Part shown: positions 1 through 52,175 of the stretch, piece by piece
Layout: every line of letters starts with the position of its first letter
Numbering within the stretch: the first letter of the stretch is position 1
Origin: Alphaproteobacteria bacterium
GTDB lineage: Bacteria; Pseudomonadota; Alphaproteobacteria; JAOXRX01
NCBI GenBank assembly: GCA_025800285.1
Contig: JAOXRX010000036.1
Coordinates: 1 to 57,880 of the forward strand
Reading direction: 5' to 3'
Length of the DNA: 57,880 nucleotides
Program-made: the position numbers and the translations under genes
The notes under the pieces: model-generated
What the model was told of the DNA's origin: nothing
Databases searched by the model: none
Seen by the model: the letters and a program-made list of their open reading frames with translations, nothing else

Positions 1-117
1 ACGACCAGTTCCACTTCCAACTTCTAACACATCACCTTTAACTAAATCTAAAAAAGCTTTTTTGTCATAAGATATATTTTTAGTTCTTATATCATACATC
101 GTAGCAATATTAGGCAT
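1..117 (-). CDS. SAM-dependent methyltransferase, N-terminal part (cut by window edge)
   Basis: The first 39 codons of a leftward gene whose remainder lies outside the window. The visible part reads into LEVGSGTGR at residues 31-39, which is the glycine-rich motif I (SAM-binding loop) of class I methyltransferases. The ATG is preceded on the minus strand by a good ribosome binding site (AGAAGGA). The substrate cannot be told from this fragment. It is transcribed divergently from the phage-like gene to its right. Confidence 0.75.
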   Translation of the reverse strand, partial: MPNIATMYDIRTKNISYDKKAFLDLVKGDVLEVGSGTGR

Positions 118-278
118 ATATATTTTCCTTCTTATTATATATCATTTTAAATTCATATCTAATAAACAATAAATTTTTAACTCTAATCATATTGCTTCGC
201 TTTCTTTGTTTTATAGACTATATAAACCATAACTATGCATTTTGCAAGAGCTACGAGAACAATAATGCAAATTAAAAC

Positions 279-307
279 TTGACAAAATAGGAAAAATGTC
301 CTATAAA
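279..307 (+). promoter_or_regulatory. Promoter with palindromic operator, in front of the tail-tube-like gene
   Basis: A near-perfect sigma-70 promoter: TTGACA at 279-284, a 17-bp spacer and TATAAA at 302-307. Between and overlapping these is a perfect inverted repeat, ATAGGA (287-292), six bases, TCCTAT (299-304), placed where a repressor would block RNA polymerase. The same arrangement, base for base in its arms and spacing, occurs at 52147-52175 in front of the other phage-like gene of this window. The region 118-278 to its left is A+T-rich and shows no gene. Confidence 0.75.
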
Positions 308-333
308 TCAATAATTGAAATAAGAACAACTAT

Positions 334-360
334 GCCCATGTAAAAACATGGGCTTTTTTT
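334..360 (+). terminator. Leader hairpin with U-tract (terminator or attenuator)
   Basis: GCCCATG, five bases, CATGGGC, followed by seven Ts. It lies about 20 nt after the predicted transcription start and just before the ribosome binding site (AAAGGA) of the gene at 386. It would either attenuate transcription into that gene or protect the 5' end of the mRNA. The other operator-bearing promoter of this window also has a leader hairpin with a T-tract. Confidence 0.7.
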
Positions 361-385: not shown

Positions 386-955
386 ATGGCATTATCTCAA
401 GTATCTATAGCTTCTGCTGCTCTTATAAAAGTTGGAGCTATGCCAATCAATTCATTTAACGATAACACTGCTGAAGCGGAAATAGTGAACACTTTGTATC
501 CTATAGTAAAAAGAGCAATATTATCTTCTCATCCATGGTCTTTCGCCACTAAACAAACATCTCTAGCGAGATTGCAACAAAATCCTATAGCAGATTACGA
601 CTCATCATTTCAATTGCCCTCTGATTTTTTAAGAGCTCTTTCTGCTGGAGTTGGTGATAGAGGTCAAGGCATTTACTACAGAATTGCAGGAGATCAAATA
701 CATGCAAATGCTGATGAACTTAACTTAACATATATATTCTCACCAGATGAGAGTTCATTCCCTCCATTCTTTGAGCAAGCTTTAATAGCAAAGTTATCTG
801 CTGAACTATGCATTCCTCTGACAGAAAACACTTCTCGAGCTCAAGCTTTGCAAAAAATTGCGGATTATGAATTTAAAAAAGCAAAAGCTATTGATTCACA
901 ACAAGATACACCGAACTCATTTAATGATTTCTCTTTAATAAATGTTAGAAATTAA
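386..955 (+). CDS. Phage tail tubular protein A-like protein (T7 gp11 type), orphan
   Basis: A 189-residue soluble protein. It has the layout of T7-like tail tubular protein A: an N-terminal segment opening with MALSQVSIASAAL and a nearby LYPIVKRAILSSHPW stretch, a central FQLPSDFLRAL segment, and an acidic-basic helical C-terminus. In podophages this protein forms the ring joining the portal to the tail nozzle. Its length matches T7 gp11 (about 196). No other phage gene is adjacent: it sits between a methyltransferase and tRNA-Leu. It has its own promoter with operator and a leader hairpin, so it looks maintained and regulated rather than decayed. The family call is from sequence pattern only; a conserved alphaproteobacterial phage-derived protein of this type is the likely identity. 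Confidence 0.7.
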   Translation: MALSQVSIASAALIKVGAMPINSFNDNTAEAEIVNTLYPIVKRAILSSHPWSFATKQTSLARLQQNPIADYDSSFQLPSDFLRALSAGVGDRGQGIYYRIAGDQIHANADELNLTYIFSPDESSFPPFFEQALIAKLSAELCIPLTENTSRAQALQKIADYEFKKAKAIDSQQDTPNSFNDFSLINVRN

Positions 956-51411: not shown

Positions 51412-52083
51412 CTATTTATATAGCTTTTTAAATCCTTGAGTTACTTTTTTTACAAACTCAGGGTCTTTAGTTTGCCAGTATTTTTTATCTTTCATCATTT
51501 TGTGCAAGTCTTCAGGAGTCAATCCTTCTTCAAACTCTTCTGCAACAGAAATAATTGGAGCATCTTCTGTCATCATATTATAAAGAGCAATAACTCCATC
51601 ATAACTTGATGATAGACCTTCTAAAACTTTCTCTGGCAACTTAGTCTTACCATATTGTAATAATTGTCTAGAAACTTCTCTCCACTTATCTTGACCGCCA
51701 AACTTTTGATGCAATTTTTCTTTTTCTTTATCACATTGAAAGTGCGAAGCGATCTCTATAATCATTGGTATCATTTTTTCTTCTGCTAAATCATAAACTA
51801 ATTGAGCCTGTTCATTTGAAAAACCTTTCTCTAATAGTTTTTGATTTATTTCATTATCAGGATTAAAATAATCATGGTTGCATATAATAGAGTACTCTTC
51901 TATTGATGCTGGAAGTTTTGGCATTTGAGAAGTTTTTTCTGATAATTTTTTCTCAAGTTCTAAATATGATTTTAATAAAGATTTTGTGTTAATTTCTCCT
52001 GTTTCTTTATTCAGGAATTTTTGAGGAATTTTTACATCCTCTTGATTTTCTTTTTTATCTTCAGATAAGAGATTTTCACTCAT
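51412..52083 (-). CDS. Phage capsid assembly (scaffolding) protein-like, orphan
   Basis: 223 residues, acidic, with features of podophage capsid assembly/scaffolding proteins found in alphaproteobacterial genomes: an N-terminal KFLNKETGEINTKSLLKSY (KF-x4-TGE-x-N/R-x2-L), then PASIEEYSI. A central helix pair follows (GFSNEQAQLVYDLAEEKMIP) and the block FGGQDKWREVSRQLLQYGK. The C-terminal region is charged and ends KKLYK, as in T7-like scaffolds that bind the capsid. It is alone among cellular genes (ychF and ntrX). It has an operator-bearing promoter and leader hairpin matching those of the tail-tube-like gene at 386. Confidence 0.7.
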   Translation of the reverse strand: MSENLLSEDKKENQEDVKIPQKFLNKETGEINTKSLLKSYLELEKKLSEKTSQMPKLPASIEEYSIICNHDYFNPDNEINQKLLEKGFSNEQAQLVYDLAEEKMIPMIIEIASHFQCDKEKEKLHQKFGGQDKWREVSRQLLQYGKTKLPEKVLEGLSSSYDGVIALYNMMTEDAPIISVAEEFEEGLTPEDLHKMMKDKKYWQTKDPEFVKKVTQGFKKLYK

Positions 52084-52106
52084 AAATGGTCTCCTTTATT
52101 TATTGT

Positions 52107-52137
52107 TAAAAAAAATGAGGACACAATGGCCCTCATT
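52107..52137 (-). terminator. Leader hairpin with U-tract before the scaffolding-like gene
   Basis: Minus strand: AATGAGG, a ten-base loop, CCTCATT and further Ts, at the very start of the predicted transcript and before the ribosome binding site AAAGGAG. It corresponds in position to the hairpin at 334-360. Confidence 0.75.
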
Positions 52138-52146
52138 CTTTTTATA

Positions 52147-52175
52147 TCTATAGGATATTATTCCTATAATGTCAA
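52147..52175 (-). promoter_or_regulatory. Promoter with palindromic operator, in front of the scaffolding-like gene
   Basis: Minus strand: TTGACA (52170-52175), a 17-bp spacer and TATAGA (52147-52152). The inverted repeat ATAGGA-N6-TCCTAT occupies 52150-52167, two bases after the -35 and overlapping the -10. Distances and arm sequences are identical to those at 279-307. Confidence 0.8.

Follow-up and report, generated by a model that had tools for sequence, protein, structure and literature searches.

At positions 51412-52175 the window (the whole stretch of DNA analysed, 57,880 nucleotides) carries, on its minus strand, an intact gene for a T7-type scaffold (capsid assembly) protein with a promoter of its own (Table 1). 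The protein is 40-52% identical to the scaffold of relatives, where the gene lies between portal and capsid. A dyad occupies the promoter spacer, and a stem-loop with a T run stands between promoter and ribosome binding site (RBS). The preliminary description had given the elements in this order, from -35 through dyad, -10 and hairpin to RBS, and a letter-by-letter reading at 52175-52147 bears it out. A second promoter of this kind precedes the tail tube A gene, on the plus strand, whose product is 48-60% identical to the relatives' counterparts. Read directly, the two promoters have equal arms, order and spacing, as had been claimed.

A search of the window for the full pattern, with up to three mismatches allowed, returned two sites, both perfect, against an expectation of 0.09 from shuffled sequence. 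The earlier statements that the motif stands at no other promoter of the window, and that two perfect copies are improbable by chance, thus hold. So does the assignment of both genes to podophage virion or assembly functions, the scaffold by PF05396 and the tail protein by phrog_394.

Window positions 1-141 are identical to the end of contig C63, so that C63 and the window contig, C36, probably adjoin. A 133-bp segment that includes the tail A promoter (window 170-302) is duplicated, at 98%, near 48.6 kb of C63; this duplicate lies about 5 kb from the original and is without gene and terminator.

Table 1. Features of the two window loci (window positions) and of the other loci of the genome (contig:position)
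Feature	Position	Strand	Remarks
Scaffold gene, intact	51412..52083	-	223 aa; PF05396, 2.7e-12
Scaffold start codon	52083	-	ATG
Scaffold RBS	52091..52097	-	AAAGGAG
Scaffold leader intrinsic terminator	52108..52137	-	10-bp stem and T run
Scaffold leader stem-loop	52137-52114	-	AATGAGGGCC-ATTG-TGTCCTCATT, T run after
Scaffold promoter	52147..52175	-	TTGACA-N17-TATAGA
Scaffold -35	52175-52170	-	TTGACA; next two bases TT
Scaffold operator dyad	52150-52167	-	ATAGGA-N6-TCCTAT; N6 = ATAATA
Dyad left arm	52167-52162	-	ATAGGA
Dyad right arm	52155-52150	-	TCCTAT
Scaffold -10	52152-52147	-	TATAGA; overlaps dyad right arm
Tail A promoter	279..307	+	TTGACA-N17-TATAAA
Tail A operator dyad	287-304	+	ATAGGA-N6-TCCTAT
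Tail A leader intrinsic terminator	332..360	+
Tail tube A gene, intact	386..955	+	189 aa; podophage tail protein, phrog_394, 8.8e-49
Fibre 2	C19		window pattern at C19:60007
PGB-like gene (our label), then Tlde1/MuF-like gene	C37:65 kb		window pattern at C37:65875
Paralogue of PGB-like gene, then MuF-like gene	C63:47 kb		window pattern at C63:47027
49-aa ORF	C37:204 kb		window pattern at C37:203835
Major capsid	C37:8 kb		second register at C37:8862
Holin-like gene, beside dnaA	C37:150 kb		second register at C37:150132
Operon of tail tube B, internal-virion-like protein, fibre, small ORFs, SNase-like nuclease, TerL	C59		second register at C59:80909
Small phage-like protein and SleB-type endolysin	C37:16.5 kb		operator-like site at C37:16567, overlapping -10
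S24/cI-type repressor gene, divergent g121-g131-portal operon	C79		perfect dyad between them at C79:39410
Decayed cassette copy	C63:48709		no terminator

One control cassette at scattered phage-type genes

The genome (1.095 Mb in 117 contigs, 97% complete) has ten promoters with a common cassette, made of TTGAC, a TAGGA-N6-TCCTA dyad over the core promoter, a leader terminator and an RBS. Two are those of the window and eight belong to other loci. A genome-wide pattern search placed four of the latter in the register of the window promoters, and in a second register the dyad lies 2 bp nearer the -35 (Table 1). Nearly all ten stand ahead of virion, packaging or lysis genes, and the preliminary description was right in speaking of a dispersed phage-derived regulon. 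One more match, at C63:15.9 kb, was set aside as chance, since it has three mismatches and precedes an unrelated gene. A GAA motif common to the organism's own transcript starts was dropped because it did no better than shuffles (1/10).

The loci supply the particle genes of a tailed phage together with a packaging motor: portal (PF12236, 8e-131), scaffold, capsid, tail A and B, fibres, TerL, endolysin and a holin-like gene. By homology search, capsid, tail B and TerL are intact, each with an operator upstream or within an operator-bearing operon. All core ORFs are intact, and their G+C content is 26-37%, against 30.6% for the window. A relative's TerL as query found the terminase; phrog_2 gave no terminase match in the window genome. 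No small terminase was identified, which counts against the explanation preferred below.

Although the assembly is fragmented, single contigs (C36, C37) hold several regulon loci among housekeeping genes. The loci lie on separate long contigs, and those on C37 span distances of up to about 195 kb, too far for one particle to carry the whole set. In this organism the genes are thus fixed in the host and unable to travel together.

A staphylococcal-nuclease-like gene (PF00565, L143:5065-5574, on C59) lies inside the tail B-to-TerL operon. An [FeFe]-hydrogenase-like ORF at L158:8237-10270, known from its translation, suggests an anaerobic host.

The products of two paralogous cassette operons (C37:65 kb and C63:47 kb) include MuF-like proteins and Tlde1-like ones of the L,D-transpeptidase type, which may be enzymes for entry or exit, or else cargo. 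Their presence would fit phage-derived particles put to a use other than DNA transfer, be they DNA-free, effector-delivering with these proteins as cargo, or agents of altruistic lysis. We hold such a use to be very unlikely, since TerL and portal are intact, which points to DNA packaging, and peptidoglycan enzymes are also usual entry and exit parts of phages and gene transfer agents (GTAs).

A single collinear cluster in relatives

Searching named genomes with the portal yielded 493 relatives; of the best 80, nearly all are titled Alphaproteobacteria. Among sampled genomes of the class, 86 of 385 have the portal at E≤1e-30, mostly in single copy. The gene order in relatives is S24 (minus strand), g121, g131, portal, scaffold, tail A; longer stretches, of about 20 kb, run through portal, scaffold, capsid, a small ORF, tail A, tail B, an internal-virion-like protein, fibre, TerL and endolysin. 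Judging from these sequences, hundreds of Alphaproteobacteria appear to hold the genes as one collinear cluster of some 20 kb with the same repressor. Thirty relatives were checked for capsid, tail B and TerL, and the hits lay close to the portal or, on short contigs, close to one another; among these and the window genome, wide dispersal on long contigs was found in the window organism only. The intact but dispersed state is best read as limited to that organism, the relatives having a single cluster.

In three 0.9-Mb genomes of one family (G079, G198, G370), TerL is seemingly split, its ATPase and nuclease halves lying about 4 kb apart. TerL of G292 has stops in its N-terminal half.

Such a cluster could also be a temperate podophage, functional or defective, and the scattered copy a decaying remnant of it. 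Every gene is indeed of phage type, an S24 repressor with a LexA-type box is the usual control of prophages, and many such clusters are found in IMG/VR as viral contigs (274 relatives). We nevertheless regard a prophage as improbable. The 80 of the 274 IMG/VR relatives that were kept lie on contigs of at most 25.6 kb. No integrase, replication or phage polymerase gene was seen in the two relatives' clusters read, judging from their ORF lists, and past the cluster end the host genes icd, folD and acn are the same in two Micavibrio-like genomes. The cluster is mostly present once per genome. The portals of isolated phages reach 38% identity at most, and the one closer portal (54%) comes from an unannotated faecal contig of 5,084 bp, itself a piece of such a cluster. 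In the window organism, finally, the core ORFs are intact though scattered, and each has a maintained operator and terminator.

The faecal contig, MT838907.1 (L191), is recorded as 'Bacteriophage sp.' from human faeces and covers the genes from portal through tail B; its DNA may be bacterial, either packaged or a contaminant. For g121, no match was obtained among 50,697 phage records.

Repressor, operator and leader terminators

The repressor gene on C79 is of the S24/cI type (PF00717, 5e-10; phrog_4, 8e-13). We collected 67 S24-g121 intergenic regions, from 66 relatives and the window genome. A dyad matching 9 or more of the 10 arm bases is present in 35 of them, where 0.2 were expected, and 55 have one with at least 8 (3.4 expected). 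In the window organism and in most related clusters the operator thus adjoins, and travels with, one phage-type repressor gene, which was the check proposed with the preliminary description. In relatives this dyad usually lies 5-9 bp ahead of the -35 of the g121 promoter. The window organism has a perfect dyad downstream of the g121 promoter -10; a degenerate dyad is found close to the ancestral position. A second ancestral site is found upstream of capsid, where the dyad directly follows TTGAC in 26 of 53 relatives (0.02 expected), mostly with the TTGAC-N4-TAGGA geometry, equal to that of the window promoters. In architecture the scattered promoters therefore match the ancestral capsid promoter. 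The dyad is the predicted operator of the S24 repressor.

Most relatives have an S24 protein that retains the LexA-type Ser, Lys and Ala-Gly. A GTTC-N7-GTTC box, which we take to be the alphaproteobacterial LexA-type box, is present in 41 of the 67 regions, mostly just past the -10 (0.24 expected). In the window organism the S24-g121 region has no such box, and the repressor resembles RogA in its make-up, an HTH and an S24 domain without catalytic residues: both the Ser and the Ala-Gly cleavage site are missing. Simple SOS induction is therefore unlikely in this organism, and DNA damage, one of the conditions suggested earlier for checking co-expression, is not the obvious trigger.

In seven relatives (L069, L071, L074, L082, L092, L102, L106) the repressor carries, in place of the S24 domain, a phosphoribosyltransferase (PyrE-like) domain, PF00156, an example of the HTH-PyrE fusion being L071:4516-5439; in L107 and L040 a PyrE-like gene directly follows S24. 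This exchange of the sensor suggests that induction has been rewired to other cues in some relatives.

Between promoter and RBS, an intrinsic terminator is found at all ten live promoters of the window genome. For comparison, 18 of 189 genes sampled from this genome have a terminator within 80 nt upstream, and 6 of the 18 are regulon genes. Terminator-like hairpins of -8 kcal/mol or better are present in 21 of 26 capsid leaders of relatives (mean -18.8, versus -6.3 for shuffles), and in an eight-sequence alignment of the capsid leader stem, 5 of 13 pairs changed on both sides with pairing kept. The g121 leader has a terminator in one of the 67 regions and none in the window organism. Thus capsid-type ('late') operons stop early and the g121 operon does not; a terminator between late promoter and genes is the arrangement expected of antitermination. 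A conserved motif after the relatives' capsid promoter, CAACGCC-N5-TGCGTC, proved to form the 5' arm of this terminator in those leaders where the hairpin is near the promoter.

The hairpins might simply be terminators of upstream host genes, with no part in regulation. Three loci, scaffold behind ntrX, capsid behind def and holin behind dnaA, do follow a co-directional gene that ends just ahead of the promoter. Four others (tail A, fibre 2, the PGB-Tlde1 operon and the 49-aa ORF), however, have a divergent upstream gene and still the hairpin, so that there it is not simply that gene's terminator. In relatives, moreover, the hairpin starts near the capsid transcript start and covaries. We find this explanation unlikely, and read the arrangement as a two-tier switch, with repression by S24 followed by antitermination through a predicted factor of the g121 operon. 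By their position, g121 and g131 are the most likely candidates for the antiterminator. Fold searches with both gave nothing significant.

The g131 protein (L028:9829-10221) and its homologues are small, with invariant His32, Cys33 and Cys96. A model of it weakly resembles a cysteine peptidase (3kw0, E 2.8), and it is perhaps a permuted NlpC/P60-like hydrolase.

A probable domesticated particle module and known systems

The scaffold gene is, in our judgement, probably a fragment of a domesticated, GTA-like particle module of T7 (podophage) type, repressed by S24 and probably dependent on antitermination. In relatives the module would form one cluster, with the S24 repressor beside g121, g131, portal, scaffold, capsid, tail tubes, fibre, terminase and lysis genes. 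In the window organism it would be split over about ten loci, each under the same cassette of a sigma70-type promoter, an S24 (LexA/RogA-type) dyad over the core promoter and a leader intrinsic terminator. From the position of the operator, and its conservation beside the repressor gene, S24 would keep all promoters off. Once repression is lifted, the g121 operon, whose leader is free of a terminator, would be made first. An antiterminator, most likely g121 or g131, would then carry RNA polymerase past the leader terminators, and the scattered genes would be switched on together. The gene content suggests that proheads would form on the scaffold, terminase would load host DNA, and holin and endolysin would release the product; we infer that particles are built and DNA is packaged.

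Taking all loci together, we lean slightly towards a new T7/podophage-type GTA lineage, widespread in Alphaproteobacteria (Magnetospirillum, Azospirillum, Terasakiella, Micavibrio-like lineages), controlled by S24 and by leader-terminator antitermination, and dispersed in one small-genome lineage. In such a lineage, the shared operator-terminator cassette would hold the single- and few-gene loci together as a functional unit. The dispersed version argues strongly for domestication, because a virus could not travel in this scattered state, and still the parts remain intact under a single operator. If DNA-carrying particles are made, a means of gene transfer has been overlooked in many genomes of well-known genera, and virus databases currently catalogue parts of it as viral contigs. 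Its control is directly testable thanks to the conserved leader terminators.

In the accessible literature, which leaves preprints and most subscription journals outside the search, the GTAs of Alphaproteobacteria belong to the RcGTA/CcGTA or Bartonella kinds, and no podophage-type one is described. The portal, scaffold, capsid, tail tube A/B and terminase families are those of T7-like podophages, for example the Pelagibacter phages, from which the clusters differ by the low portal identity to isolates (at most 38%) and by the phage polymerase and replication genes not seen in those read. With RcGTA and the Rhodogtaviriformidae (PMC9662315) the system shares phage-derived particle genes fixed in alphaproteobacterial genomes at several loci. 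Its phage ancestor (PF12236 portal, PF05396 scaffold) and its control are different, and its structural genes fall in the T7-type PF12236, PF05396, phrog_394, phrog_376 and phrog_3437, outside the Rhodogtaviriformidae. A podovirus-like GTA-like element was first claimed in 2026 in Faecalibacterium (FpGTA, PMC12946183). It too is GTA-like with podovirus-type parts, in two operons that include lysis genes; unlike the present system, known from its genes and compared with it by description, it belongs to a Firmicute, its particles were seen experimentally and it is far less dispersed.

As for control, Q antitermination in lambda and phage 21 (PMC11150451) differs in that many separate late promoters are present here and that the candidate g121 has no detectable similarity; alike are the late promoter, the promoter-proximal terminator and a site between -35 and -10. 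The Caulobacter RogA protein is an HTH-S24 repressor without catalytic residues, which binds the gafYZ promoter region, where inverted repeats GGAA-N4-TTCC are present (PMC9632790); GafZ, an antiterminator, has a putative site that lies between -35 and -10 (PMC11150451). The likeness to RogA is one of domain make-up, an S24 repressor without catalytic residues, and of dyad spacing, GGA-N6-TCC versus GGAA-N4-TTCC. The CcGTA circuit and the present one, as inferred, would further share a repressor acting on a small regulatory operon, antitermination of structural genes, and accessory loci elsewhere. In contrast to CcGTA, the particle genes here are T7-type rather than RcGTA-type, every scattered structural gene has the operator, and the leaders carry terminators.
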